A DNA stretch of 64,000 nt from Acidobacteriaceae bacterium (GTDB lineage Bacteria > Acidobacteriota > Terriglobia > Terriglobales > Acidobacteriaceae): NCBI GenBank assembly GCA_027449965.1, contig DAIDKP010000024.1, forward strand, positions 1-64,000, read 5' to 3'. A program made the position numbers and the translations under genes. The notes below the pieces were generated by a model that was not told the DNA's origin, searched no databases, and was given only the letters and a program-made list of their open reading frames with translations. Below, piece by piece: positions 1 to 15,103 of this stretch (positions within the stretch are counted from its first letter, which is position 1; each line of letters begins with the position of its first letter).

Positions 1-713
1 GTCTCCACCAGCCGTTCCATCTCCTCGATCGCCCCGCCGTACCACTCCGGCGGAATCTCCGCCGCTGCATCCCAGATCTGCTCCACCGGCATCGTCTCCA
101 TCCGGCTCAGCCACGGTTCAAAGCTCTCCCAGCCCGTCACCCTGCCATAGACCGCATTCCGCGGATACACCCCGCGCAGCGGCGCATCCTCAAACTTCCA
201 CTCCCCGGCATGGAAGCAGAATCCCTGGTCAATAAAGACCGCCGTATACCGCCGCTCCCGCGCCGACCGCGTAAACACCGCCTGCCGTCCATTGGCATTG
301 CCCGTCCACTTGTCCAGCGCCAGCATCCCGGCAAACTCCGCCAGGTTCCGCACCTCGCCCAACTGCTCCTCCGGCAGATAATCCATCACCTGCCCCGGCA
401 TCAGTCCGCCCACATACCGCGCGCCAAAGTTCAGCCCCGCCGCGCACGGCTCGCGTCGCCGTCCCAGGTCCACCTGCAACTCCGGCGTATGCTCCACCAG
501 CCACGCGGAAACCTCCACAACCTCTGTCTCCGGAACGGTCAGCCCCACCGCGGCCGCCAGCCGCGTCGCCAGCATCTCATTCGCCAGCACCCGCTCATGC
601 TGCGGATTGTTGCGAAACTTCACCACATACAGCCGCCCATCGGAGCCAAGCATCAACTGCCCCTGCGCCCCGCCCCGCATCCGCCGAATCTGCTGCACCG
701 CCTGCACCGCCAA
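1..713 (-). CDS. HipA-like kinase, C-terminus cut by window edge
   Basis: The reading frame runs off the left edge, so about 237 N-terminal codons are visible. The protein opens with QAVQQIRRMRGGAQG, then LYVVKF (the lysine expected to contact ATP) and NPQHERVLANEMLA. Further on come LDKWTGNANGRQ, which fits a kinase catalytic loop (Asp followed by Asn), and FIDQG, which fits the metal-binding DFG-like site. These match the HipA-like kinase family (HipA_2 type), stand-alone proteins of about 260 residues related to the persistence kinase HipA. No ATG lies near the start; TTG at 713 has GGGGGA nine bases upstream, and GTG at 707 or 698 is possible. A frame stop at 720-722 bounds it. The substrate cannot be read from sequence. 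The terminase gene lies upstream on the same strand, 268 bases away. Confidence 0.8.
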   Translation of the reverse strand, partial: MAVQAVQQIRRMRGGAQGQLMLGSDGRLYVVKFRNNPQHERVLANEMLATRLAAAVGLTVPETEVVEVSAWLVEHTPELQVDLGRRREPCAAGLNFGARYVGGLMPGQVMDYLPEEQLGEVRNLAEFAGMLALDKWTGNANGRQAVFTRSARERRYTAVFIDQGFCFHAGEWKFEDAPLRGVYPRNAVYGRVTGWESFEPWLSRMETMPVEQIWDAAAEIPPEWYGGAIEEMERLVE

Positions 714-862: not shown

Positions 863-984
863 GTCATTCCCGCAGAGAATCTGCTTCTGCCCTTGCCCAT
901 ACTCCCAACCCACCCTGCGACCAACGGGAGCGGCCCCAAAAGCCCGTGGCGCGCAAAGCGCGCGGCTGCCCCACCCAGTGGTCA
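863..984 (+). repeat. Interspersed repeat, copy 1
   Basis: The segment begins GTCATTCCCGCAG, continues with an AATCTGCTT block, then CCACCCTGCGACC, a GCGCGC-aaa-GCGCGC hairpin, and ends CCCCACCCAGTGGTCA. The same blocks in the same order occur at 2791-2897, and a shorter inverted copy at 19322-19380. Its right end includes the TGA stop of the terminase gene (982-984, minus strand). It occupies most of the 268-base gap between the kinase and terminase genes; nothing else was seen in that gap. Confidence 0.7.
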
Positions 985-2607
985 GCCGGCCCGCCGATAG
1001 TTCCCTGCGCGAAGCGGAATATGCCGTTGCATCATTCTTCCACCCAGCATCTGTTCCCGCGCCGCCAGTCCAATGGCCATCGCCATCACGCGATCGTCGT
1101 GGGTTCCGCTGCGTGCGCCCGCGCTGCCATTAGCCAACCGCACAAAGCTGCGACACTCCATCAGCAGCCCGCGGCTGTTCAGCGCCTGCGGATGTTCCTG
1201 CACCACCGCCGCCAGCCGCGCCAGCACCATCGGACGTGTCAAGGTCGTCGTCAGCCATCCCGGCTGTCCATCCCCCGCCACCCAGATCTCGTGATACCCC
1301 ACCGTCTCGCTCAATCCCAGCAGCACCGCCGCCCCATGATTGTTCCGCTCCACCACCACCGGAGCCTCATTGAACCGCCGCGCCAACCCCGCCACCTCAC
1401 GCGCCAGATCGCTCCCGCCCAGATGTGCCGCAAACTCCGCGCACTGCATCCCGCTTTCCAGGTCCAGCACCTCGGCCACTGAATAGTCACCCTCCGAGCC
1501 GCCTCCAGCCGGGTCCACCGCCACCAGATACCGCCGCCCGCACACCGGCGGCAGATATACCTCCAGCCTTCCGTTATGCATCCGTTCCGTCGGCTCGCCC
1601 AGCTCCGCCAGTCGCTTCTCCACAGCCTCCTGGTCAAAGTACATCTCGCCGGAAACCAGAAAGCATCGCTCCGCATCCTCGGCAAACTCCTGACGCGCCA
1701 GCGGTCCCTGCGTCGCCATCATCTTCCGTCGATACGCAAGCTGTTCCAGATCCAGACCGCGCTCCACAAACATCTCCAGCTCCTCGTCCGACAAGCTCTC
1801 CTCATCCACCGCCGGCAGCCGATAGCTCTTCTCCATCCACCACGGAAAAAAGTGCTTCACCATCCCCGTCTCTTCGGCGCGCATCCACTCGTCATAGAAG
1901 CAGCCGCTCGCCCCGTTCGGCGTCGACTCCAGCACCAGTTCCGTCTCCGCTCCCGCGCTTCCCGGCGCCAGCGACGCCCGCAATCCCGCCAGCGTCTCCT
2001 TCCCATCCCCCGGCCAGCGCGAAACCTCCGAGCAGTGCAGATTCTGCACCGTCATCCCTCGACCCGCATTCCTGTCCGCCGCGCTCACCACACGAAACTC
2101 CGAATCGATCTTCGGAAATCCGATCTGCCGTACATTCAGCCGATTCGTCACCAGCACGCCGTCCTTCAACCCTCGCGGCAAATGCTCCACATACCGATGC
2201 ACAATCCGCAGAATCTCCTCCGCCGCATCCTGCGTATGCGCCACCAGCAGCGTCAGCGTCCCTGGCCGCGTCACCGTCTTCAGCAGAAACCTCCCCGCCA
2301 CCCACGTCGTCATCCCCATCTGCCGCGCCTTCAGCACAATATTCGCGTCCCCGCGATGCCGCTCAAACGCTTGCTGCGCCGCATTCGGCTTCAGCAGATG
2401 CAACCGGCCATCCTTGCCCCTCACCTTCAGCAGATTGCTCGCCAGAAAAATCAGCGGAGTCTTCCCCTTCAACTTCGTCGAGGGCACATCCAGAATCTCC
2501 CCCAGCTTCATCAGTTCTTCCCGATCCCGCATCTCCCGCAACGCCACCCTCTGCGCCTCGCGTTGCTGCTGCATCCGTTCCAGTTGCTTCAGCTTTCCTT
2601 GCGCCAA
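982..2607 (-). CDS. Phage-type terminase large subunit, isolated
   Basis: The 541-residue protein has the layout of a large terminase, the motor and nuclease that packages phage DNA. The ATPase part has VLKARQMGMTT near residue 87, the Walker A variant usual in these proteins, LHCSEVSRW as a likely Walker B region, and LESTPNG as the coupling motif. The nuclease part has VAVDPAGGG near residue 364, VVVERNNHG and GTHDDRVMA near residue 502, which would supply the acidic metal-binding residues. No motif looks broken. TTG at 2607 is preferred because AGAGGAG lies six bases upstream; ATG at 2522-region downstream positions is less likely. No small terminase, portal, capsid or protease gene is recognisable nearby, so it is either a remnant kept intact or recruited for another role. 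Confidence 0.85.
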   Translation of the reverse strand: MAQGKLKQLERMQQQREAQRVALREMRDREELMKLGEILDVPSTKLKGKTPLIFLASNLLKVRGKDGRLHLLKPNAAQQAFERHRGDANIVLKARQMGMTTWVAGRFLLKTVTRPGTLTLLVAHTQDAAEEILRIVHRYVEHLPRGLKDGVLVTNRLNVRQIGFPKIDSEFRVVSAADRNAGRGMTVQNLHCSEVSRWPGDGKETLAGLRASLAPGSAGAETELVLESTPNGASGCFYDEWMRAEETGMVKHFFPWWMEKSYRLPAVDEESLSDEELEMFVERGLDLEQLAYRRKMMATQGPLARQEFAEDAERCFLVSGEMYFDQEAVEKRLAELGEPTERMHNGRLEVYLPPVCGRRYLVAVDPAGGGSEGDYSVAEVLDLESGMQCAEFAAHLGGSDLAREVAGLARRFNEAPVVVERNNHGAAVLLGLSETVGYHEIWVAGDGQPGWLTTTLTRPMVLARLAAVVQEHPQALNSRGLLMECRSFVRLANGSAGARSGTHDDRVMAMAIGLAAREQMLGGRMMQRHIPLRAGNYRRAG

Positions 2608-2790
2608 CTCCCACTCCTCTCTGTTCGGCGGCCAACCGTTCCCACCCCACCCGTGCGCAACACGACCACCCCATCGACCCCGCAACGTCCCGCCACGTCG
2701 GGAGCCGCCCGCCTGCCCGGGCCGCCTCGCGCATCCCCTGTGAACCTGCCCCCATCCCCGCACACCGCTTCCACTTCTGTCTTTCTTGTT

Positions 2791-2897
2791 GTCATTCCCG
2801 CAGGGAATCTGCTTTTCCAGGCGCCCTGCGCCACCCCACCCCGCGACCACCGGGAGCGCCACCGCGCAAACGCGCAGTGGCCCCACGCAGTGGTTCA
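2791..2897 (+). repeat. Interspersed repeat, copy 2
   Basis: This copy holds GTCATTCCCGCAGGGAATC, whose core ATTCCC-gca-GGGAAT is a perfect inverted repeat, then CCACCCCGCGACCACCGGGAG, a GCGC-aaac-GCGC hairpin and CCCCACGCAGTGGTTCA. Its right end contains the TGA stop of the giant fibre gene (2895-2897, minus strand), just as copy 1 contains the terminase stop. It fills the right part of the 287-base gap between the two genes; the left part is C-rich with no feature seen. Confidence 0.72.
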
Positions 2898-5800
2898 GTT
2901 TCCGCCGCACCAGTAGCGCACGCTGTAGCCGGTCCCGGCCGTCAGCGCCGCATCCGCTGTCAGGGTCAGCGCCGTCGTCGTCTCCGACCACTCCACCGCG
3001 TTCACGGCTCCGCTTCCCGCCAGCGTCGCATTCACCACGCAGTTGGCGTTGTTCACATGCACAAACGGAAACGTCAGCGTCGCCACCGTTCCGGTCGTCG
3101 TTGCCGTTCCGGTCGTCAGCGTCAGCGTGCCGCTCACGCCGTCGCAGACGTGCCCGCTGGCGCAGCCAATCGTTGCGCCCGTACCAGCCGCCGTGCCTGC
3201 CGCCAGCGTCATTCCCCCGCTTCCGGCCACGCTCTGTGCCGTCTCCGCTCCTGCCACAGCCACGGTAAACGGTCCCGTCGAGCCGCTGTTGGTCAAGTTC
3301 AGCGTCTCGGCGCCGTTCGTTCCTGGCATACAGCTTGGCTGTATGTTCATCGCATCCATCGCGCTTGCGCTCCCGTTCCAATAGAAGCCCTGTATCGACA
3401 CAAAGCCCCCGTTGATGCACTGCGTTGCTGTTGCATACGCCGTCCCATTGATCAGCACCAGCGGCGCACCCGCGTTCACGCGTATCCCGCCATAGTTCGT
3501 CTGCAACAGATTCGCCGTCACCGTTCCCGGCACCGACAGGTCGCCTGCTCCGGTCACCGTCATCGCAGCTGTATTCGCGTTCGACCCTCCTTCATACACA
3601 ATCAGCCCGCCCGTACCGCTGCCGCTTCCGTTGTTGATCGTAACCGCATTCGCGCCCGCGCCCGCATTGATCGCCGTCTGCCCGTTTTGATACGCGACGA
3701 TTCTGTCCATGCTGTTCGCCGCATCCGTCATCCGCAGCGCATTGCCAGAGTCCTTCTTCCATGTCCACTCCGTCGCCCCGGTATAGCTGTTCCAGGCCAC
3801 CGTCCCGTTCTGCTCTGCGCTCGTTCCCGGCTGGATCGCCAATGTCTCTGCGGCATTCGTCGCATTCGTCAGGTTCACGTTCCCCGTCGCCGTCGTTGTC
3901 CCCGTCAGCGTCGGCGCGGCAATCGACGGACTCGTCGCCAGCACTGCGCTGCCCGTGCCCGTCGTCCCGAGGCCGCTCACCGTCGTGCCCGTCGTCGCGT
4001 AATACGCCAACTGGCCCGCCGTTCCGCTCGCCACCGTGCCCGCTCCACCGCTGGTCGCGCCGCAGCCCGTGCAGCTTGCCACCGTCAGATTGCCGCTTCC
4101 GTCAATCTTCGCCACCGTCGTCGGCGTCGCCCCGCCAGAGTAGAACACCACGCCGCCCGTACCCGCATTTGCCTCCACATTGAAGCGCACCGCGCCCGTT
4201 CCCGCCGCATCCAGATACTCATCCCCGTTCTGATACGCCTTCAGGTGGTCCAGCCCGTCAATCGCGGAATTCAGCGCCCAGTTGTTCGATCCATCCTTCA
4301 CCATGTACCACTGGCTCGCCCCCGTGTAGTCCTTGTAAATGAAGCTCTCCTTCTGCGTCGTCGTCGCGCCCGCCTGCAGCGTCTGGTCAATCTCCGCATT
4401 CGCCGCGTTCTTCACCGTCGTCGATCCGGTGAACGTCGTCGCGCCGCCCACGGCCAGCGTCCCCAGAAAATCCGCATTGCCGCTCCCGTCCACCGTCGCC
4501 ACCGTCGTCGGCGACGCGCCGCCGCTGGAAAACGCCACGCCGCCCGTGCCCGCGTTCCCGCTGCACTGGAAACAAACATTCCCTGTCCCGGTTCCGTTGA
4601 TCGCAGTCGAATTGTTTCCCGCCGCGTTCTGCTCCTCCATCTGCAACCGGATCACGCCGTTGATCAAGTCCTGAAATATCCAGTTCGACTGTCCGCTCCC
4701 ACCGTCCGTCAATCCCCACAGCCAGTTGTACTGCGTCGCCGACGTCCCGTTGTCCACCTGGCTCTCCCACTCCAGTCCGCGCACATTGCCCGCGCCCGTG
4801 CCCAGTCGATAGTGGTTGGTCACCGTCGCGTCCTTCTGGCTCGCATACCAGTCTCCGTTCAACCCGTTGAACGTCCGGTGAAACGCATCCCAGAAGCTGT
4901 TCCGGCTGCCGTTGTCGATCAGCGCTCCGGTAAACATCGTCCCACCCGTCATCCAGCTATTGAACTGGCTGCCCGCATCCGCCTCAACCTGCGTCGTCGA
5001 GCCTTCGTTCCTCACCCCCACCAGCGTATTGTTCTGCGCATTCGACCCCAGATGCACCGCCGTCGAGCAGCCCTCCACATCGCCGCCAGTAAACGTGTTC
5101 CCATCGCCCTGCACCAGATTTACACCCACCGTTCCCGCAATCGCGCTTCCGCTCGCTGTCGGACAATCGATATGCAATCGAAGAAACGTACTCGCATTCA
5201 CCCAGTCCGTCGTCGCCGCATTCGCCACCTGATGCCCCACCGCATTCACCGCAATCTGGAACCCGTTGATGTCCTGGTCAAAGAACGTTCCACCCGTGTA
5301 GTTGCCCGTCCCATCCAGTTGCAGCGCCGTCTGGTTCGCGTTGCCCAGGTAGTAGTCGCTTTCCAGATCCAGCTCCTGCACCCGCCACGCCGCCAGCGCT
5401 TCCGTCGCCGCGCTCGTCGATCCGGTCGTGTTCACCAGCACGTTGTCCATCGCAAAGCCCATCGTGTCCTGCGCATAGGTCGAGTCGCCCACCTGAATCG
5501 CCGCGCCAGCTCCCGAATACGCCAGCACCGTGCCGCCGCTCATCCCGCTTGCCGCCGTGCCTCCGCGCAGCGCGCAGCCATGCAGCTTCACCCCTCGCAC
5601 CCCCGCCGGAATCACCAGCGGAGCCGTCATCGTGATCGTCGCGCACGGCAGGTCGATCCGCGTATTCGGCACACTCACCGTCACCGCCGCGCTGATCGTC
5701 TGCGCGCCCGTATAGTTCCGCGCATCGCAGGTTCCGCCGGTCGCCGGCAGCCCGCCAATACAGGCTGCAAGCTGCGCTCCAAAGTTCGCTCCGCTCTCCT

Positions 5801-8800
5801 GATCGGTCTCCGTCAGTCCACCCACCGTCTTCGCCGTCAACGTGCCGCTGAAGATCGTCGCAGCCGCCGTCAGACTTGCGCCGCCCAGGTTGGCCAACGC
5901 CTGCGCCGCATCTGCCGCGCCCGTGCCACCAAAGCTCAACGCCAGCGTGCCCGTTGAAACGTTGCTCGCGTTCAGGCCCGTCAGGTTGCCTCCGGCAAGC
6001 TGCGGAGCCGTCTGCCACGTCGGTACAAACGCGCCCGTCCCATTGCCCACATCCACCAGCAGCGCCGGTGTCGTTGAGCTGTTGCCCGCCAGCCGCGTCG
6101 GATTCCCATTCGCATCGCCCACCACCAGGTCGCCCTCGCTTTGAGTCAACGAACCGCTTGTCGTCACCGCGCCGCCGCTGGTTGTCGGCGGCGTAGGCGA
6201 AGCGGCACCGGCCAGCAGAAACGCCTGATACGTGCCCGCCGGATAGCTGGCCGTATTCGTCGTCGGATTGCAGGCCGTCAGTGCCATCGTCCCCGCCGCC
6301 GTCATCGTGCCGCTCAACTGCAACCCATTCACGCTTGCAGGCGGTGCCACATACAGAATCCCGTCCGTCGCCGCCGCATTGGGCAGCGTAATACCCGGCA
6401 CCGTCGCGCAGCTCTGCGGCCTCACCGTTCCCCCGGCAATCGCAAACGCCTGCTCAGCAAAATCGGTCACCGGCAGCGTCGCATCCGCCGTGCTGATCAC
6501 ACCAGGCCGCACGCGCAGCCCAGGCATCTGCACCGCCGTCAGCCCCTGCAACCCGACGAAGCCGTCGTTCTCCAACACAAAATAACGCGGCGGCTGGTTC
6601 ATACTTGCATTCAATCCATCCGCGTTGCGCATGCACCACGCATCGTCATACCCGCCCACGCTCCCATGCAGACAAAACTCGCCCGAATCAAAGTTCACCT
6701 CTCCCGGCAAGCCCGTTCCCGTCGAATGCCCCAGGCTGAGTCGCAGGGTCGTCACCGGCGCGGTGCGCGGCACGATCACCGATGCGGCAATGCTGTCCGT
6801 GTTCGTAAGATAGGTTCGAAAGTCCCCCAACTGCTGCGTCTGACTCACCTGCGGCGGTTCGGCCACTGTGTCGGCGATCGGCGATCCCGACACATTGATA
6901 TTGCGCGCCGTCATGTTCTGGAAGTCATAGAGCAGCACCGCGCCCATCAGTTGGTTATCCACGCTGTCATAGGGATTCGGACAGCCTGAGGAACCATATG
7001 CGCCATAGGCGGGGGTGGCGTCGCACCAGCCCACCAGCTCCGTCCCGATCGAATCAATCGTCCAACCTGTCGCCGCCGTCGCAATAATCGGATAGTTCTG
7101 CGTGAACTTGATATTCGCATCGTGCAGATATACTCCGATCACTGGCCGGTAATAGCGCGAATAGGTGGCAAACATCACGTGATAAACCCCGCGCCACAGC
7201 GAATCCATCACCCCGCCAGCTGGAGCCTTGTTCTGGTCTGTCAGCCGTGTCTGGTTATCCTGCTCGTGGAAGAAGTAAGTGTTGAACCAGGTATCCAGAG
7301 CGTTTTGGGCGGTCTGTGACTGCGCCTGCGTTGACCAGTTGAATCCGTAAAAGATGATTCCATCCACCGATGTGCCATCGCCCAGGTTGTAATCATTCAA
7401 CACCGCATTCCCCTCGATGCTGGTACCCGGTGCGCGTGACTTCCACCAGCCGCCGATGATCAGCCCTGACATCATCCCTTGCAGGTTCAGGTTGCGAAAG
7501 TGGTTGAACTGCGACGACCCCAGAAGCAATGCCATACCGACTCCGTTCATCGTCACACGATCCCACTGCCAATACGCCGCCGAGACCGTCGTTGCCGCAA
7601 TGAACGCCTGCGATATATTCAGGTCATAGAGATTCCACGAGGCGATCGCAGTATCCGAGCCAAAAATCGCAAAGTAGGGCGCAGCCATCGTGTACTGCGA
7701 AGCTGAAATTGCATTCCCGGTAAAGCTCGAAGTGATCGTCGCGCCGTTGCCATAAATCGTCAGCGAATTCGATTGTGTGCTGGGGATGCGAATCGCATAA
7801 CCCAGATATCCCGGCGTCTCCGGCGACAGATTCGTACAGGGAACACCGTTACAAGTGTCCGTGCTGGGTGCCGTGCCGTCGTCCCACGCCGTCTGCATAT
7901 ACCCGGTAATCGTTCCGATGAAGTAGGTCTTGCCCTGCGTCAGAGTCACTGATCCGGCGTGTGTTCCGTTGCCGGTGGCAAATTCAATGGCATTGTTGAA
8001 GCACTGCGTATCGTCCGTCACGCCGTCGCCCGCACAGCCAAAGTCATCCACGCGAATGTCGGCGGAGTAGGTCGTTACGCCGCGCCGCTGATCGAGCACC
8101 GGCGCTGGCTGCTTCGTTGCCGATGGCGGAGCCACGGCGATCGTCGGGCAGCTTGTGTAGCCGCTTCCACCGCTTGTCACCGTGTAGCTGGACACCTCAC
8201 CGTTGCTCAGATTCGCCGTCACCTGCAATCCACTGCCGCCGCCGCCACTCACCGTCACCAGTGGATCCACCGTATAACCCTGCCCAAGCTGGCCGGGAAT
8301 CACGGAGGTGACCGCCCCGTTCTGCGTCGGATCATAGACACACTGCGCCGTCGCCTGCATCGCCGCATTCTGCGCAAACGTTCCCGTCGTTCCCGGCGGT
8401 ATCAGCGCTGAAGCCGCGCTGCTCACGCAGCCGCTCACGCTTGGCGAAAGCGCACAGTTGGTCGTCCCGTCAATCACCGGAGCATTCAGCGCTCCGGTCA
8501 TCGTGCCGCCGGCCAGCGGCAGTTCACCGCTGCCGCTGGCAATCTGGCTGGCCACGGCCTGATCCACATATGCCTTGTTCGCCGCCTGCTCCGGAGCCGT
8601 TGGCGCATTGGCCACCAGCAACTGCTGAAACGCGGGCACAAAGGCCATCCAGGCCGTCTCCACATTGGTGGACGTGCTGGGCGGCATGCCCTGCGCATTC
8701 ACCGCATTGCCCTGCGTCGCGCTGTCGCAGGCAGAGATTCCCGTGACTGTGTTGTAGGGAATGCGGAAGATCTGCCAGCTCGTCGTCAGATTCACCGTCT

Positions 8801-11555
8801 GGTCGGCGAAGACGCAACTTTGCCCATTCGCCACGCCGCTCAGTTTCAGCTCCTGGCTGGCAGCGGTGTCAGCCTTGGCGGCGATCTCCCAGGTGCCGGT
8901 TCCGACGGGAAATCCGTTGCCCAGCAGCAGGCTGCCACCTGCCCCGCGCACACTCCAGTTGCCCGTCGTATCCCACGCTCCACCCACGGCGCGCACATAC
9001 GAGCCGGTGACAGGAGCGCTCGCATCCTTGCCCGACTGGCTACCCGTGCCGACGCTTTCACCGCTGGCCGCAAGCAGGTCTTCGGCGGTGAGGAAAAGAT
9101 CGTCGAGGCTGCTGAATGCCTGGTTGGCAGAGCCGCCGCCGAGCAAGGCAAAATCTGCCGTCGCGCGACCTTCCTCCAGCCGCGCCGGTTCCACGGAGTG
9201 CTGGCCTGCGCCGCTGGTCTGCTCGAGGACGTTGCCCAGGCCGGAGTCAGCGAGCATCGCCGCTCCGCTGAGGCCCAGCTGCTGAAAGCGATTGGACGAG
9301 CCGCTGTTGCCGTTGGCTACACCGTTCAACTCGGCGCTGGGCGCAATCACCAGCGCCGGATAGCTGGTGGTGGAAGCGGCAAGTGTGCCGCCGCCCTGCA
9401 ACGAGGTTTCGTGCGTCTCCGATGAAGCCGCGTTCCAGACGGTGTAACCGCCGCTGCCGTTGAGCATGGCTCCGCCCAGAAGAGTCATCTTCTGGCCGGA
9501 GATCAGGTTGACCGGCTTTGCCGTCATCCATGTGCCGGCAACGTTGATGGTCGCGGTGGTGGTCGACGAGCAGCCAAATCCTGCTGAGGTCACAGCGACC
9601 GTGCCAAGCGATCCGTCCGCGTTGACCGAGGCATTTGCGACCGCCGTACAGCTTCCGCTGAAGACAAGAGGAACCGTTGGGCCATACGGCTCAAAGCCGA
9701 GTCCATGCTCCGGCCCGACCGTGACACCGGTGACCGCACCCGAAGCCGTGTTGACGGCAAGCTGCGGCTGGACAGCAATCCATTCAGGAGAAACTCTCGC
9801 ATTGCGAATGGTCCATCCCTGCGCTGTGCCCGGCGCGTCTGCGGCAAAGTCGAGCACCAGTCCGGTGGGTGCTTCGCCGGTGGCAGCCGAGTTCCAGGCG
9901 TGTGCTGTGATGCCATCCAATACGTTATTGGCCCCGACCGCGGCGACAAAGCCGTGGACGACGTTGAGCGTGAGATGGCTCCACTGATTGTTGTCCGCAG
10001 TCAGACCGGCGGGAACGGTGGCGGGCAGTGCGGGCACAGCGATGCCGGTGCCGAGTCCACTCAAGGTGAGGTTGCGAAAGACTGAGCCGGCGGGCCACTG
10101 AGCAAGATAGAGTCCGCAGGTATGGGTGGAGCTTGCACCGGAGTAGCCGCCGAGCGGATCGTTGCCCGTGGTGGCAATCACGAGATTGTCGATGGATGCG
10201 TTCTTCAGGCCGTTGCCGCCTGCTCCGGTGGAGGCGGGCATGGCGATGGCGCAGTTGCCGAGGTACCATCCGGCACCGCTGCCCGCGGTGGCCGTGAGGC
10301 CATTGCCGCCGGGCGAAAAGATGCTGCCGCCTTCGACAGGACGATTGACCGTGCAACTGCCGGCAGCGGCTCGACCCTCCGCGGGCGAGCAGGAGACATC
10401 GACGCTTTGATCGACATACAAAGTGAAGTCATGCAGGCGCGTTCCACTGAAAAGGGTGGGAGAGTCGGTCGTGGTGACGAGGATGTCCTGACCGGGAAAG
10501 CCCATGAGCGCGGAGTTTTGCGTGCCCTGACCTGCTATCGACTCCAGATGCCAGGTGAGCGGATGGGTTTTGCAGATGCCGGAGGGCAGTGTGAGTCCGA
10601 CGTGATGCGCCTGAGCGTAGTTGATGGCGGCCTGAAGCGCAGCGGTATCGTCGGTGACGCCATCGCAGACAGCTCCAAACTCCTTGACGCTGCGCGGGTG
10701 CTGCTGGGAGCCTCCGGTGCGCCAGTCTTCGACGCGAATGCCGCCGGGATTGGTGAAACTGTCCGTGCCGGAGTAGGTGGGCGGAACGATCATGGCGCCT
10801 GTGTTGCCTGCGGCGGTGACGGTGGTTTGAAGATTGGTCTGCGCCGAACCGTTGACGGGCGATGCAAGGCCGTTGACGGCGGGCGTGGCAAGTGGGCCGG
10901 TCATGGTGCCGCCGGCAAGCGGAACGGCCTGGGCAAAACTCTGGTCAACATAGTGTTTGTCGGCAGCCATGAGTGGGGTGGTGGGGTCGCCGCTCAGGGT
11001 GAGGGGTCCGGTGAGCGTGCCACCGGAGGGGGAGAGCTGACTGCTGCCGAGAGCGGCGATCTGCTGATTGACGTAGGCCTCTGTAGCGGCCTGGACGGCC
11101 TGCGCGGCGGGAAGCACCTGAGCTTCAACCGAGGCGATGGTGGCCGTGGTGGTAGCGGGGACGACCCAGTACTCAGTATTCACGGTGCCGTCAGAGAGCT
11201 GATAGACGACGGTGTAATACAGGCCGGCGGGAGTGGCGCCGAGGTTGGGGGCGAGATTGACGCTGACAAAACCATCGGCACCGATGGTGACGGTGGTGGA
11301 GTCCGCAGCGACGGACTGGCCGGCGGCGGTGGTGAAAGACGGCCAACTGATAATCAGCGTTCCAGAGGCAGGCGCACCACTGGCGAGATAGACGGTTCCC
11401 TGCACGGTGGTGGTGGTGATGGCCTGCGCCCAAAGCTGCTGCCCGGTGATGCCGCCACCGAAGAGAGCGCAGGCAAGTGTGATCAGGAGAGCAGTTCTGC
11501 GAAGCGCCTTCCACCCAAATCCGGATTGTGTGTCAACGGCCTGCCAATTGTTCAT
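2895..11555 (-). CDS. Giant secreted tail-fibre-like beta-helix protein
   Basis: The 2886-residue protein starts with a signal peptide (hydrophobic LLITLACALFGGGI after KALRR, cleavage likely after LWAQA near residue 45). A beta-sandwich-like domain (residues 46-135) is followed by LTGPLTL and PLAGGTMTGPL at about 180-220, a repeat typical of phage tail fibres that recurs near 1013. FGAVCDGVTDDTAA at about 294 and FGCAGDGVTDDT at about 1172 are the opening motif of pectate-lyase-3-type right-handed beta-helices; a third helix-like segment begins near 1913. Residues 2220-2650 hold three related modules, and the C-terminus ends RYWCGGN. GGAAGGA precedes the ATG by eight bases. It is probably a surface fibre or polysaccharide-binding or cleaving protein; catalytic residues cannot be assigned. 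It follows the small protein gene and precedes the terminase gene on the same strand. Confidence 0.8.
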   Translation of the reverse strand: MNNWQAVDTQSGFGWKALRRTALLITLACALFGGGITGQQLWAQAITTTTVQGTVYLASGAPASGTLIISWPSFTTAAGQSVAADSTTVTIGADGFVSVNLAPNLGATPAGLYYTVVYQLSDGTVNTEYWVVPATTTATIASVEAQVLPAAQAVQAATEAYVNQQIAALGSSQLSPSGGTLTGPLTLSGDPTTPLMAADKHYVDQSFAQAVPLAGGTMTGPLATPAVNGLASPVNGSAQTNLQTTVTAAGNTGAMIVPPTYSGTDSFTNPGGIRVEDWRTGGSQQHPRSVKEFGAVCDGVTDDTAALQAAINYAQAHHVGLTLPSGICKTHPLTWHLESIAGQGTQNSALMGFPGQDILVTTTDSPTLFSGTRLHDFTLYVDQSVDVSCSPAEGRAAAGSCTVNRPVEGGSIFSPGGNGLTATAGSGAGWYLGNCAIAMPASTGAGGNGLKNASIDNLVIATTGNDPLGGYSGASSTHTCGLYLAQWPAGSVFRNLTLSGLGTGIAVPALPATVPAGLTADNNQWSHLTLNVVHGFVAAVGANNVLDGITAHAWNSAATGEAPTGLVLDFAADAPGTAQGWTIRNARVSPEWIAVQPQLAVNTASGAVTGVTVGPEHGLGFEPYGPTVPLVFSGSCTAVANASVNADGSLGTVAVTSAGFGCSSTTTATINVAGTWMTAKPVNLISGQKMTLLGGAMLNGSGGYTVWNAASSETHETSLQGGGTLAASTTSYPALVIAPSAELNGVANGNSGSSNRFQQLGLSGAAMLADSGLGNVLEQTSGAGQHSVEPARLEEGRATADFALLGGGSANQAFSSLDDLFLTAEDLLAASGESVGTGSQSGKDASAPVTGSYVRAVGGAWDTTGNWSVRGAGGSLLLGNGFPVGTGTWEIAAKADTAASQELKLSGVANGQSCVFADQTVNLTTSWQIFRIPYNTVTGISACDSATQGNAVNAQGMPPSTSTNVETAWMAFVPAFQQLLVANAPTAPEQAANKAYVDQAVASQIASGSGELPLAGGTMTGALNAPVIDGTTNCALSPSVSGCVSSAASALIPPGTTGTFAQNAAMQATAQCVYDPTQNGAVTSVIPGQLGQGYTVDPLVTVSGGGGSGLQVTANLSNGEVSSYTVTSGGSGYTSCPTIAVAPPSATKQPAPVLDQRRGVTTYSADIRVDDFGCAGDGVTDDTQCFNNAIEFATGNGTHAGSVTLTQGKTYFIGTITGYMQTAWDDGTAPSTDTCNGVPCTNLSPETPGYLGYAIRIPSTQSNSLTIYGNGATITSSFTGNAISASQYTMAAPYFAIFGSDTAIASWNLYDLNISQAFIAATTVSAAYWQWDRVTMNGVGMALLLGSSQFNHFRNLNLQGMMSGLIIGGWWKSRAPGTSIEGNAVLNDYNLGDGTSVDGIIFYGFNWSTQAQSQTAQNALDTWFNTYFFHEQDNQTRLTDQNKAPAGGVMDSLWRGVYHVMFATYSRYYRPVIGVYLHDANIKFTQNYPIIATAATGWTIDSIGTELVGWCDATPAYGAYGSSGCPNPYDSVDNQLMGAVLLYDFQNMTARNINVSGSPIADTVAEPPQVSQTQQLGDFRTYLTNTDSIAASVIVPRTAPVTTLRLSLGHSTGTGLPGEVNFDSGEFCLHGSVGGYDDAWCMRNADGLNASMNQPPRYFVLENDGFVGLQGLTAVQMPGLRVRPGVISTADATLPVTDFAEQAFAIAGGTVRPQSCATVPGITLPNAAATDGILYVAPPASVNGLQLSGTMTAAGTMALTACNPTTNTASYPAGTYQAFLLAGAASPTPPTTSGGAVTTSGSLTQSEGDLVVGDANGNPTRLAGNSSTTPALLVDVGNGTGAFVPTWQTAPQLAGGNLTGLNASNVSTGTLALSFGGTGAADAAQALANLGGASLTAAATIFSGTLTAKTVGGLTETDQESGANFGAQLAACIGGLPATGGTCDARNYTGAQTISAAVTVSVPNTRIDLPCATITMTAPLVIPAGVRGVKLHGCALRGGTAASGMSGGTVLAYSGAGAAIQVGDSTYAQDTMGFAMDNVLVNTTGSTSAATEALAAWRVQELDLESDYYLGNANQTALQLDGTGNYTGGTFFDQDINGFQIAVNAVGHQVANAATTDWVNASTFLRLHIDCPTASGSAIAGTVGVNLVQGDGNTFTGGDVEGCSTAVHLGSNAQNNTLVGVRNEGSTTQVEADAGSQFNSWMTGGTMFTGALIDNGSRNSFWDAFHRTFNGLNGDWYASQKDATVTNHYRLGTGAGNVRGLEWESQVDNGTSATQYNWLWGLTDGGSGQSNWIFQDLINGVIRLQMEEQNAAGNNSTAINGTGTGNVCFQCSGNAGTGGVAFSSGGASPTTVATVDGSGNADFLGTLAVGGATTFTGSTTVKNAANAEIDQTLQAGATTTQKESFIYKDYTGASQWYMVKDGSNNWALNSAIDGLDHLKAYQNGDEYLDAAGTGAVRFNVEANAGTGGVVFYSGGATPTTVAKIDGSGNLTVASCTGCGATSGGAGTVASGTAGQLAYYATTGTTVSGLGTTGTGSAVLATSPSIAAPTLTGTTTATGNVNLTNATNAAETLAIQPGTSAEQNGTVAWNSYTGATEWTWKKDSGNALRMTDAANSMDRIVAYQNGQTAINAGAGANAVTINNGSGSGTGGLIVYEGGSNANTAAMTVTGAGDLSVPGTVTANLLQTNYGGIRVNAGAPLVLINGTAYATATQCINGGFVSIQGFYWNGSASAMDAMNIQPSCMPGTNGAETLNLTNSGSTGPFTVAVAGAETAQSVAGSGGMTLAAGTAAGTGATIGCASGHVCDGVSGTLTLTTGTATTTGTVATLTFPFVHVNNANCVVNATLAGSGAVNAVEWSETTTALTLTADAALTAGTGYSVRYWCGGN

Positions 11556-11629
11556 TGCAAATATCCTTCCCCATCGTGCTGCGTCGGTTGATCTGAAGCT
11601 GCCTTGCCAAACTGTGCGATCTGGTCGCG

Positions 11630-11688
11630 CAAAAATGCGGCCCTGAGGAGCCTGGTCCGTTGTGAGGACCAGGATTGCAGGGCCGCAT
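11630..11688 (-). terminator. Strong Rho-independent terminator
   Basis: An 11-base outer stem (11635-11645 with 11678-11688) encloses an 8-base inner stem CCTGGTCC/GGACCAGG (11651-11658 with 11666-11673, loop 11659-11665). On the minus strand it is followed directly by TTTTTGCGCG. It would stop transcripts from the small gene at 11772-12155 before they reach the giant gene, which then needs its own promoter in 11556-11634, where I see no convincing one. Confidence 0.75.
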
Positions 11689-11771
11689 CGTGGAAGCTGT
11701 CATTTGCCCTTGTCCCGGGCCAGGCTGCCGGCGTTCCACGCGTTCCGGCATTCCTGATTCATGATCTGCTG

Positions 11772-12155
11772 TTACTCTTGCTCGCCTTGTTCGTCGTCCT
11801 TCTCTACGCTGTCACCCACGAATCCAGGCATCCCGGCAAGAGTCTCTGCGAAACTCTCATATTCAGCCCGGCTGATCGGCTGCCTGTTGTTGTGTTTGGA
11901 TGCAATCTCAAAAAGAATGCGCACGCTGGGAGCATGATTCTTCTGGATGACGTTGTCGCCAATGCATTTGATGATTTTGAGCATGTTCATTGCTACGATC
12001 CGATCCGCCTTACTGACCATCTGCATCATCAACAATTCGTCAAAAGCAATATCCTCCGGATCGCTCTCCACATCGTCCAGCGTATTGTTTCGTGTTTCCT
12101 GTTTGTCCGCCTCACCGTTCTTCGTTTGCAACATCGCCCCGCTAGTTTCTGACAC
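11772..12155 (-). CDS. Small acidic hypothetical protein
   Basis: The frame encodes up to 127 residues, not recognised. It is charged and helical in appearance: an N-terminal Asp/Glu-rich stretch, then FDELLMMQMVSKADRIVAM, a segment ending RILFEIASKHNN, and an acidic tail EKDDEQGEQE. There is no signal peptide or membrane segment. The frame starts with GTG at 12155, which lacks a Shine-Dalgarno; ATG at 12134 is preceded by GCGGGGCG and is a reasonable alternative. The gene lies upstream of the giant fibre gene on the same strand, separated by a strong terminator. Its helical, acidic character and position would fit a small-terminase-like or DNA-binding partner of the terminase, but nothing in the sequence proves this. 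Confidence 0.55.
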   Translation of the reverse strand: MSETSGAMLQTKNGEADKQETRNNTLDDVESDPEDIAFDELLMMQMVSKADRIVAMNMLKIIKCIGDNVIQKNHAPSVRILFEIASKHNNRQPISRAEYESFAETLAGMPGFVGDSVEKDDEQGEQE

Positions 12156-12607: not shown

Positions 12608-13801
12608 ATGCCGGATTCAGGATGTGCGGGAGTCAGGATGGGACGAATGCGAGCTGAGATGAGAAGGTTTGCGGGAAGCAGGCTGGCGCTTCGTGTGGCG
12701 ATGGGGATGCTGGCTCCGCTGCTGATGAGCTGCGGCGGAAGCAGCAGCAGCGGCGGGGTGGCGAAGACGCCACTGATTGTTCAGGCGCAGCCGCCGACGA
12801 TCACAGCGACGGCAGCGCAGAATGGCGCGCAGGTGATTACGCTTGCGAGCAACATTCCGACGGCGACGATGTATTACACGCTGGATGGCTCGGCGCCGAC
12901 GACGGCTTCAACCGTTTATGAGGCTCCGTTTCTGTTGACGTCGAGCGTGACGCTGAAGGCGATTGCGGCGGCGAATGGCTTCAACACGAGTCTGCCGGCG
13001 AGCCAGAGCTTCACGATCAACGTAGCGTCGGGGACGCTGGTGTGGAGCGATGAGTTTACAAACTCCGGCGCGACGAATGCGCAGCCGAACCCGGCGACGT
13101 GGACGTATGATACGGGCAATAGCGGCTGGGGCAACAACGAGCTGGAGGATTACTGCGCGTGGGGATCGAATGCGTCGCCGTGCAATGCGGCGTCTCCGAA
13201 TGCGTATGTGGGCACGGATGGGGCGCTGCATGTGGTGGCCGAACAGCCATCGGCGGGGGTGTATACGTCGGCGCGGATGAAGAGCCAGGGATTGTTCAGC
13301 TTCCAGTATGGACGGGTGGAGGCGCGGATCGAGCTGCCGGAGGAGCAGGGATTGTGGCCCGCATTCTGGATGCTGGGCAACGACATTGCGACGGTGAACT
13401 GGCCGGCGAGCGGGGAGATGGATATTGCCGAGCGTGTGAATGCGGCGACGACGCCGGACTGGAATATGGGTTCGGTGCATGGGACCGGGTTCACGGGGAC
13501 GAATCTCGGGACGAAGTACAACTTTCCGGCGGGTGAAACAGCGGCAGGGTGGCACACCTACGGGATGATCTGGAAGCCGGGATCTGTGGCGTATTACATA
13601 GATGATCCGACGCATCCGTATGCGACGTTTACGCCGGCGAGCGTGGCCGGGTTCAGCGGGGCGGTGTGGCCCTTTGACTCCGGGCCGTCATTTTTCATTT
13701 TGAACCTGGCGGTGGGTGGGCAGTGGCCCGGCGCACCGAATGCGACGACGAGCTTTCCAGCGCAGATGGTGGTGGACTATGTGCGGATTTATGCCAACTG
13801 A
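12608..13801 (+). CDS. GH16 family glucanase lipoprotein
   Basis: The protein is predicted to hydrolyse beta-1,3 or beta-1,3/1,4-glucan (laminarinase-like) on the cell surface. The N-terminus has basic residues, a hydrophobic stretch and LLMSCGGSSSS, a lipobox-like site with a serine-rich tether. Residues 60-145 form a chitobiase C-terminal-like beta-sandwich (YYTLDGSAPTT). The catalytic domain begins at LVWSDEF and carries GEMDIAE, the GH16 motif ExDxxE with nucleophile and acid/base glutamates, then YGRVEARI, WPAFWM and FILNLAVGG. The frame has 397 codons; starts at 12608, 12638 or 12659 are all possible, the later ones giving a more normal signal peptide. A LacI-type regulator follows. Exact substrate is not settled by sequence. 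Confidence 0.88.
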   Translation: MPDSGCAGVRMGRMRAEMRRFAGSRLALRVAMGMLAPLLMSCGGSSSSGGVAKTPLIVQAQPPTITATAAQNGAQVITLASNIPTATMYYTLDGSAPTTASTVYEAPFLLTSSVTLKAIAAANGFNTSLPASQSFTINVASGTLVWSDEFTNSGATNAQPNPATWTYDTGNSGWGNNELEDYCAWGSNASPCNAASPNAYVGTDGALHVVAEQPSAGVYTSARMKSQGLFSFQYGRVEARIELPEEQGLWPAFWMLGNDIATVNWPASGEMDIAERVNAATTPDWNMGSVHGTGFTGTNLGTKYNFPAGETAAGWHTYGMIWKPGSVAYYIDDPTHPYATFTPASVAGFSGAVWPFDSGPSFFILNLAVGGQWPGAPNATTSFPAQMVVDYVRIYAN

Positions 13802-13825
13802 GAGATGGCAGGAAACGACTGCGAG

Positions 13826-13857
13826 CCGGATTTTGCTGGACCCGGATTTTGCTGGAC
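13826..13857. repeat. Perfect 16-base tandem duplication
   Basis: CCGGATTTTGCTGGAC occurs twice back to back between the glucanase gene and the lacI-type gene. It could be a replication-slippage product or a pair of protein-binding sites. Nothing else clear was seen in 13802-13978 apart from TAATAT at 13936, a possible -10 box. Confidence 0.75.
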
Positions 13858-13978
13858 GATGACGAATTCTGTAGGAGGAAGCGCAGCATGACTGCTAGAC
13901 TTTGCGCAAAGATCGAGAGCAGGAAATTTTCACCGTAATATACGTGGATGATTCGATAGAAGAAGCGAGGCGCGAACG

Positions 13979-15103
13979 ATGGCGCGAACCCGAGAGGCAG
14001 GGCCGAGCGAAGCGGCGGCTGGGAATGGAAAACCGGAGAGGAAACTGAGCGCGAAGCTGGAGACGCATGTGGAAACGGGCGAGGATGTGAGCGCGCCGGT
14101 GACACTGAAGGTGCTGGCGGCGCGGCTGAATCTGGATCCGGCGACGGTTTCGGTGGTGCTGAACAATGTGCCTGGGCGATCGATTCCGGAGCGGACGCGC
14201 GAGCGGATTCGAACGATGGCGCGGGAGATGAATTATCACCCGAGCTACATTGCGCGTTCGCTGCGAAACCGTCGGACGATGATGGTGGGGATTCTGACGC
14301 CGGTACTCTCTGAGGGTTACCACTCGGAGGTGATGAATGGAATTTTTGCGCAACTGATTGAGCAGGATTATTTCAACTTCATTGCGACGCACCGGCACAG
14401 AGCGGAGCTGGTGGCGAAGTATCCGGGGATGATGCAGAGCCGCGGTGCGGAGGGAATTCTGGCGATTGACACGCACCTGGCGGGTCCGCTGCCTGTGCCT
14501 GCGGTTTCGATTGCCGGGCACGCGGCGATTGCCGGAGTGACGAACGTGCTGCTGGACCACAATGAGGCGGCGCGGCTGACGCTGCGGCACTTGTATGACT
14601 TGGGCCATCGGAGTATTGCGTTCATGCATGGGCATCCGGATAGTTCAGATTCGGATACGCGATGGGAGGCGCTGCAGGCAGCGGCGCAGGAGCTGGGGAT
14701 TGCGATCGATCCAGCGCTGACGATCCATATTGACGAGGACCGGACGACGCCGGAGCTGGGCTATCCGGTGGTGGAGCGGCTGCTGGGCGAGAAGCGGAAG
14801 TTTACGGCGATGGTCTGCTTCAACGATGTGGCGGCGATTGGGGTGATTCGCGCGCTGCACGATGCGCATATACGCGTACCGGAGGATGTGTCGGTGATGG
14901 GGTTCGACGATGTGCCGTATGCGGCGTTTCATTCGCCGCGATTGACGACGATTCGGCAGCCGCTGGCGGAGATGGGTGCGCTGGCGGCGCGGCTGCTGGT
15001 GGAACAGATGAGCGGCAGCGGAGGCGCGCCGAAGGCCGAGGTGATGGTGGCACCGGAGCTGATTGTGCGGGAGTCAACTGGCGCTGTGGCGCGGCGCGGG
15101 TAA
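13979..15103 (+). CDS. LacI/GalR-family transcriptional regulator
   Basis: The 374-residue protein carries an unusual 40-residue charged N-terminal extension before the helix-turn-helix VTLKVLAARLNLDPATVSVV (residues 41-60) and hinge region (RERIRTMAREMNYHPSYIARSLR). The periplasmic-binding-protein-like sensor follows, with MVGILTPVL, GILAIDTH, GHRSIAFMHG, FTAMVCFND and VSVMGFDD, all in the usual order. It should bind a palindromic operator and release it on binding a sugar or sugar phosphate. The MFS gene starts eight bases after its stop, so the two are likely cotranscribed. A matching operator lies at 16264-16277. An internal start nearer residue 40 cannot be excluded. Confidence 0.92.
   Translation: MARTREAGPSEAAAGNGKPERKLSAKLETHVETGEDVSAPVTLKVLAARLNLDPATVSVVLNNVPGRSIPERTRERIRTMAREMNYHPSYIARSLRNRRTMMVGILTPVLSEGYHSEVMNGIFAQLIEQDYFNFIATHRHRAELVAKYPGMMQSRGAEGILAIDTHLAGPLPVPAVSIAGHAAIAGVTNVLLDHNEAARLTLRHLYDLGHRSIAFMHGHPDSSDSDTRWEALQAAAQELGIAIDPALTIHIDEDRTTPELGYPVVERLLGEKRKFTAMVCFNDVAAIGVIRALHDAHIRVPEDVSVMGFDDVPYAAFHSPRLTTIRQPLAEMGALAARLLVEQMSGSGGAPKAEVMVAPELIVRESTGAVARRG

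Follow-up and report, generated by a model that had tools for sequence, protein, structure and literature searches.

A probably domesticated, largely vertically inherited tailed-phage cluster of one acidobacterial family, cut by a contig end: a candidate gene transfer agent

Introduction

How an intact large terminase subunit (TerL) comes to stand beside a giant fibre-like protein and a HipA-like kinase, with no other phage gene in sight, is the question raised by the left end of the DNA analyzed here, a stretch of 64,000 nucleotides from an Acidobacteriaceae bacterium (genome G000, contig C24, positions 1 to 64,000; hereafter the window). An initial annotation had proposed that these genes form a kept and repurposed module, such as a surface fibre system or a DNA-delivery element, and not a random relic. 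Our analysis indicates that they very probably belong to a domesticated, largely vertically inherited particle cluster. We further propose that the window holds the left end of this cluster, a set of tailed-phage structural genes found in one acidobacterial family, and that the cluster is, with a lesser degree of confidence, most likely a gene transfer agent (GTA).

Results

The cluster continues beyond the contig end

The individual genes described in the initial annotation were borne out. TerL matches the PHROG terminase large subunit (E value 6e-24) within a frame that is open over 982-3420, and it carries a deviant Walker A motif together with Walker B and nuclease acidic motifs. Its fibre-like companion, 2886 amino acids long and with a Sec-type N terminus, matches a pectate-lyase-like Pfam family (E 6e-9) as well as phage connector and baseplate PHROGs, and the kinase-like protein at the left edge matches HipA_2 in Pfam (E 4e-11). 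The statement that these genes occur without any other phage genes did not survive: the window seemed free of them because position 1 is a contig end, an assembly artefact. The capsid search located the presumed capsid gene of the same genome at C13:63-1028, where it is followed by the adaptor, c7, c11, tube, hub, and c12 genes to about position 7702. A portal search of this genome gave no match, and the piece of the cluster between C24 and C13 is missing from the assembly. In relatives, this gap holds the rest of the HipA-like gene, DUF3037, portal, protease, and scaffold; G014, whose TerL is 95% identical to that of the window, has all five in this order. The premise of a four-gene module falls as well, as the genes of relatives run on without a break into portal, protease, scaffold, capsid, tube, and hub. 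Portal, capsid, and tail genes, named beforehand as the mark of an ordinary prophage, are present in relatives at the place that corresponds to the left of position 1.

Gene order and content in relatives

We fetched 20-60 kb around TerL from ten relatives and clustered the genes, then scanned named genomes with a capsid alignment, which confirmed 180 relatives and left 80 loci for analysis, with gene order scored by tblastn. The standard order is fibre, TerL, HipA-like, DUF3037, portal, protease, scaffold, capsid, adaptor, c7, c11, tube (c9), hub (c10), and c12, followed in many loci by purE and purK. Among the 80 loci, 62 show this order, 12 are permuted (eight of which carry the names Granulicella or Edaphobacter), and 6 are ambiguous; 711 of 729 neighbour pairs are in standard order, and all 12 core genes are present in 32 loci. 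Where at least 2.5 kb is available past the hub, purE lies downstream in 34 of 42 standard loci. The cluster is also carried by the cultured and sequenced Terriglobus roseus DSM 18391 (locus L172, 154283-175251).

The portal is clearly assigned by similarity (Pfam E 6e-56), and the adaptor has a match to a head-tail adaptor family (PHROG E 2e-14). The tube model (predicted local distance difference test score, pLDDT, 79.5) resembles tail tube proteins with a best E of 2e-11 but a template modelling (TM) score of only 0.40-0.47. The hub model (pLDDT 88.6) resembles baseplate hubs and spikes, including Mu gp44 and VgrG; its resemblance to lectin- and lyase-like folds is weaker. Protease and scaffold are putative names given from position and sequence character, and c12 looks holin-like by inspection. 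Sequence searches of the PDB with the capsid profile, the hub profile, and the HipA-like protein returned nothing useful. In one genome, G088, a glucosaminidase-type lysin directly follows c12 (L125:11709-12161, E 5e-26). Scans with Pfam and PHROGs found no integrase among the cluster genes that they covered, some small open reading frames (ORFs) being left unscanned and other recombinases not being searched for separately.

Each of two potential regulators, c15 (a CI-like repressor) and c16 (sigma-region-4-like), was found in 6 of the 11 genomes compared and in most permuted loci. The Ser and Lys that we presume to be needed for CI-like self-cleavage are present in the c15 of G088 and in none of the other sequences in which that stretch was displayed, so SOS control is unlikely in most copies.

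Distribution and inheritance

TerL was matched in 56 of 150 relatives. For the capsid, 397 genomes drawn from the order gave 228 with a match (169 of 268 when only the better genomes are counted), with a single capsid match per genome except for two matches in 4 of the 228. In a phylum-wide draw, the capsid was found in 35 of 396 genomes, all within the window's family. A capsid-negative genome need not have lost the cluster, because G007 keeps TerL and gives no capsid match. Among 50,697 phage records, no match to the capsid was found; TerL matched 365 of them, all below 60% identity and the best at 28%.

We compared the TerL tree with that of the host gene der in 30 genomes. The der gene lies ~30 kb from the cluster in the window's lineage; in most other genomes with coordinates at hand, the distance is hundreds of kilobases or the two are on separate contigs. 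The two trees share 16 of 27 splits. Their distances correlate with a Mantel r of 0.815, and with an r of 0.69 among the 18 genomes outside the genus; in neither case did any of 2000 permutations reach as high a value.

The purE site adds a second line of evidence. We searched for purK in nine genomes, eight of them capsid-negative, and read the purE region in six of those eight; of the other two, G197 has a distant purK match only and G063 none. Pieces of the cluster lie beside purE in all six capsid-negative family genomes that were read. G165 retains the HipA-like/DUF3037 pair alone (L301:11937-13719), and G001 has fragments of fibre and hub together with c12. As an outgroup control, nine genomes outside the family were examined; purK was matched in three, and at the purE sites of these three no cluster gene was found at E 1e-3. 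Scars within the family and clean sites outside it point to a cluster that was present in the ancestor of the family and was deleted repeatedly thereafter. The window's own lineage is different: its purE and purK are on contig C17, and no cluster gene was detected next to them.

Selection and terminase motifs

The ratio of nonsynonymous to synonymous divergence (dN/dS) was computed from 14 pairs of related loci; each gene was covered by 5 to 14 of these pairs, and pairs with dS outside 0.05-2.5 were excluded. Median values for 13 genes range from 0.048 to 0.176 (c12, 0.048; capsid, 0.061; TerL, 0.176); an outlier of 1.18 (scaffold, L154-L147), probably a frame error, was retained in the median. 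Judged by these ratios, the core cluster genes are under purifying selection. The capsid (c5) frame is 321-324 amino acids long in all 84 extracted rows, 83 of them distinct. In TerL, the Walker A and B patterns are found in 81 of 81 rows (77 distinct), and the three strict nuclease patterns in 65, 40, and 34 of the 81. The nuclease exceptions that were printed mostly keep the acidic residues next to a residue outside the pattern. G035 has ELN in place of ERN; the last two motifs are absent from the L173 protein, which looks frameshifted.

A putatively exported fibre and a predicted pseudokinase

Fibre length varies among relatives. Ten fibres with a TTTVQGTVY module, those of the window and nine others, have a hydrophobic leader just before it. 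A test for a Sec-type leader was passed by 26 of 35 uncut fibres and by 0-39% of control genes; this test is lax, and the claim of a leader rests equally on the ten similar leaders, which were selected by the TTTVQGTVY motif. If exported, the fibre may work on the cell surface or attach to particles once these are outside the cell.

The HipA-like and DUF3037 proteins match the PADLOC models PDC-M66A and PDC-M66B. These models also recognize the systems known as HipAD, DS-6, and PDC-M66, in which a HipA-like protein likewise stands beside a DUF3037 protein (PMC13092281 and PMC12548924); as far as the available text of these papers shows, the tested pairs defend against phages, with one partner apparently a toxin and the other its antitoxin. 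The cluster's pair differs from them in its place between terminase and portal and in its kinase loop, which reads NxNGR, not NxD. This NxNGR pattern was found in 45 of 49 sequences and was unmatched in 4, and NxD is present in seven homologs from related genomes and in two plasmid homologs. Kinase activity is unlikely because the catalytic Asp has been lost, and the cluster's HipA-like protein is, from its sequence, probably a pseudokinase. An active toxin-antitoxin or defence pair is unlikely for the same reason. The two proteins may have been put to a new use, possibly in regulation.

Related virus contigs and lone capsid genes

Contigs with 45-55% capsid identity to the element include some with integrases. 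Integrases are present in L251 and L253 (capsid identity 46-49%), and L251 has a contractile tail sheath gene, of which the element shows none. The nearest phage-type contig by capsid, L260 (IMG/VR, 47 kb), has homologs of portal, protease, capsid (53%), c11, and tube in the same order. Unlike the element, however, it has a weakly identified tape measure after the tube (PHROG E 2.5e-4), and no HipA-like or DUF3037 match was found in the 18.6 kb examined. The TerL model phrog_2 had no match in six virus contigs, L260 and L255 included, which is weakly informative.

Lone capsid homologs, near-identical over the compared stretch and 67-70% identical to L141, occur in the IMG/VR contigs L246, L249, and L250 (124, 74, and 214 kb). 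A further contig, L247 (89 kb), has a lone capsid homolog 77% identical to that of the L174 element, and a lone protease homolog too. No portal or terminase homolog was found in the examined stretches around these four capsid genes, and the neighbours in L250 and L247 include phage ligase, kinase, helicase, and primase genes. In the capsid tree, the four copies group with the elements, next to the permuted type (weak support, long-branch outgroup). The dN/dS between the L246 and L250 copies is 0.19. The segment after the first ~55-60 residues is rewritten in L246 and L250 and absent from L247.

Other features of the window

The coordinates of the locus are collected in Table 1. The 127-residue small acidic protein is present as the initial annotation had it. 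Four other genomes of the genus have a homolog with a ..HLPSAKLL..-like helix upstream of their fibre, and we consider the protein a candidate small-terminase-like protein. The synteny expected for the whole set in relatives held for the HipA-like and fibre genes, which are regular cluster members; for the small protein, it is clear only within the genus, to which its clear homologs are confined. A GH16-like enzyme and a LacI-type regulator (12608-15103) adjoin the cluster; the GH16 gene is also beside the cluster in G014 and is not there in the other nine relatives compared.

Table 1. Features at the left end of the window
Feature	Position	Strand	Remark
HipA-like protein (HipA_2; PADLOC PDC-M66A), predicted pseudokinase (NxNGR)	1..713	-	C terminus cut at contig end
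TerL (large terminase subunit), likely gene	982..2574	-	PHROG match; gene start as homologs suggest
Fibre-like protein, 2886 aa	2895..11555	-	pectate-lyase-like and phage-appendage matches
Sec-type leader of fibre, then TTTVQGTVY module	11424..11555	-	approximate limits, by inspection
Small acidic protein, 127 aa	11772..12155	-	homologs with ..HLPSAKLL..-like helix before fibre
Contig end	1..1	.	cluster resumes on contig C13, same genome

Discussion

What kind of element has been kept here? Published provirus annotations imply a family of temperate phages that can still move and that favours a site near purE, and this reading can draw on the mostly intact structural genes, on integrase carriers among contigs with 45-55% capsid identity, and on surveys that, in their available text, list such loci as putative and likely active prophages. 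We nevertheless hold it to be very improbable, as no integrase was found in the cluster, the locus is largely fixed and restricted to one family, the TerL tree is largely congruent with that of the host, and partial deletions have left scars. We reject an ordinary prophage on the locus, the trees, the scars, and the missing integrase. Split, short, or deleted copies in some genomes would suit a neutral, decaying prophage relic, but this is scarcely credible: it is largely contradicted by the near-constant capsid length and by median dN/dS values far below 1 for all 13 genes, on which we reject it. The conclusion of the initial annotation, a kept and repurposed module, remains the best reading, because the site is largely fixed, the cluster is nearly always single copy, its genes are under purifying selection, and its tree largely follows the host; only the four-gene premise from which it was drawn does not.

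The more serious competitor is a domesticated cluster put to a use other than transfer, whether as a particle that harms competitors, a surface structure with an exported fibre, or an anti-phage device. The Sec-type leader of most uncut fibres, the lack of a detected tape measure, the relation of the PDC-M66 pair to a tested defence pair, and the lone copies of the capsid gene in large phage contigs all speak for such a use. However, purifying selection on terminase, portal, protease, and scaffold would not be expected of a fibre-only or tailocin-like function, and the HipA-like kinase has lost its catalytic Asp. We regard non-transfer use as somewhat unlikely overall, and a pure surface-fibre system, one of the two examples offered by the initial annotation, is not supported.

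We therefore favour a GTA, which would work as follows. The host would switch the cluster on in some cells, and the CI-like and sigma-region-4-like genes close to the left edge of the cluster may serve as the switch. Heads of phage type would then be built with a short tail made of tube and hub, without a tape measure. TerL and portal would load these heads with host DNA, as we propose, since there is no longer a phage genome for them to select. Lysis would release the particles, and the exported fibre would help them to meet kin cells. A bolder extension, which we consider unlikely, is that this is an independently domesticated GTA of Acidobacteriota whose particles are important enough to phages for large phages to have captured its capsid gene and, with the segment after the first ~55 residues rewritten (L246, L250) or deleted (L247), to use it as an assembly-poisoning decoy. 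If so, the element would serve DNA exchange and at the same time take part in the conflict with phages.

A number of observations weigh against domestication, vertical descent, or transfer. Particles, the DNA packaged in them, and its transfer are inferred from sequence and not from direct observation. The capsid itself is presumed from the position of c5, its near-constant length, and weak PHROG matches. No tape measure was found between tube and hub, the hub directly following the tube in standard loci (the rest of the genome was not searched), and a Sec leader on the fibre fits badly with a particle assembled in the cytoplasm. In G053, G037, and G038, TerL is split over at least two separate frames, and some extracted cluster genes are short or have an internal stop. 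Nine family genomes in the phylum draw have no capsid match (35 of 44 with one, if the listing was ordered by kinship, as it appears to be), and the scars in G172, G178, G163, and G166 consist of small edge genes only (c12, c15, c16, or a small downstream ORF). Eleven of the 27 TerL-Der splits differ, some of them well supported, so some exchange between near relatives may have occurred. Integrases are present in 0 of 24 element-type virus contigs, against 5 of 13 among the remaining contigs whose capsid is related, but most of the 24 are fragments below 22 kb. Low protein carbon content has been reported for GTAs, and the cluster gives a mixed picture against seven phage homologs, with the mean for the protease below all seven, that for the portal below four, and that for the capsid above six.

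Some of these loci are already in print as proviruses. Eichorst et al. 2018 (PMC5900883) describe an acidobacterial prophage cluster 153 that includes, in the available text, Koribacter 5150000-5190000 and Terriglobus roseus NC018014 150000-180000, an interval that contains L172, and the study counts prophages with a virion gene as likely active. A study of Tunturi viruses (PMC11924767) describes, in the portion available, a Terriglobales provirus group (ii) that resembles the Koribacter provirus. Both treat the loci as proviruses, and vertical inheritance, a fixed locus, scars, and domestication are absent from their available accounts. In a Sphagnum virome (PMC12142844), one contig with two ORFs, which may or may not be our element, aligns to a phage-like region of an Acidobacteriaceae genome; four of five shared contigs match Acetobacteraceae. 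Its authors report that excision and replication modules are missing and remark in general terms that vertically inherited cryptic phages can become GTAs. We found no paper that names the element a GTA, within the text available, and none that joins 'Terriglobia' with 'gene transfer agent'. A 2023 proposal on GTA taxonomy (PMC9953437) lists hosts, in its available part, only among alphaproteobacteria and spirochaetes.

If the cluster is a GTA, some annotated acidobacterial proviruses and soil virus contigs would in fact be host genes, and a family-wide route of gene exchange would exist in soil, where acidobacteria are abundant. The candidate is open to testing, because Terriglobus roseus DSM 18391, which carries it, is cultured and sequenced.

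The closest parallel is found in the alphaproteobacterial GTAs (RcGTA, Rhodogtaviriformidae), compared here by their described features. Several points set our cluster apart: no tape measure was found in it, whereas RcGTA has one, the HipA-like/DUF3037 pair lies inside it, the fibre has a Sec leader, and the hosts belong to another phylum. A tail with a tape measure as in RcGTA is not, however, a feature of every GTA. As in these agents, the genes for terminase, portal, protease, capsid, adaptor, and tube form a head-tail cluster that is inherited vertically, lacks an integrase, and has been lost in a patchy manner.

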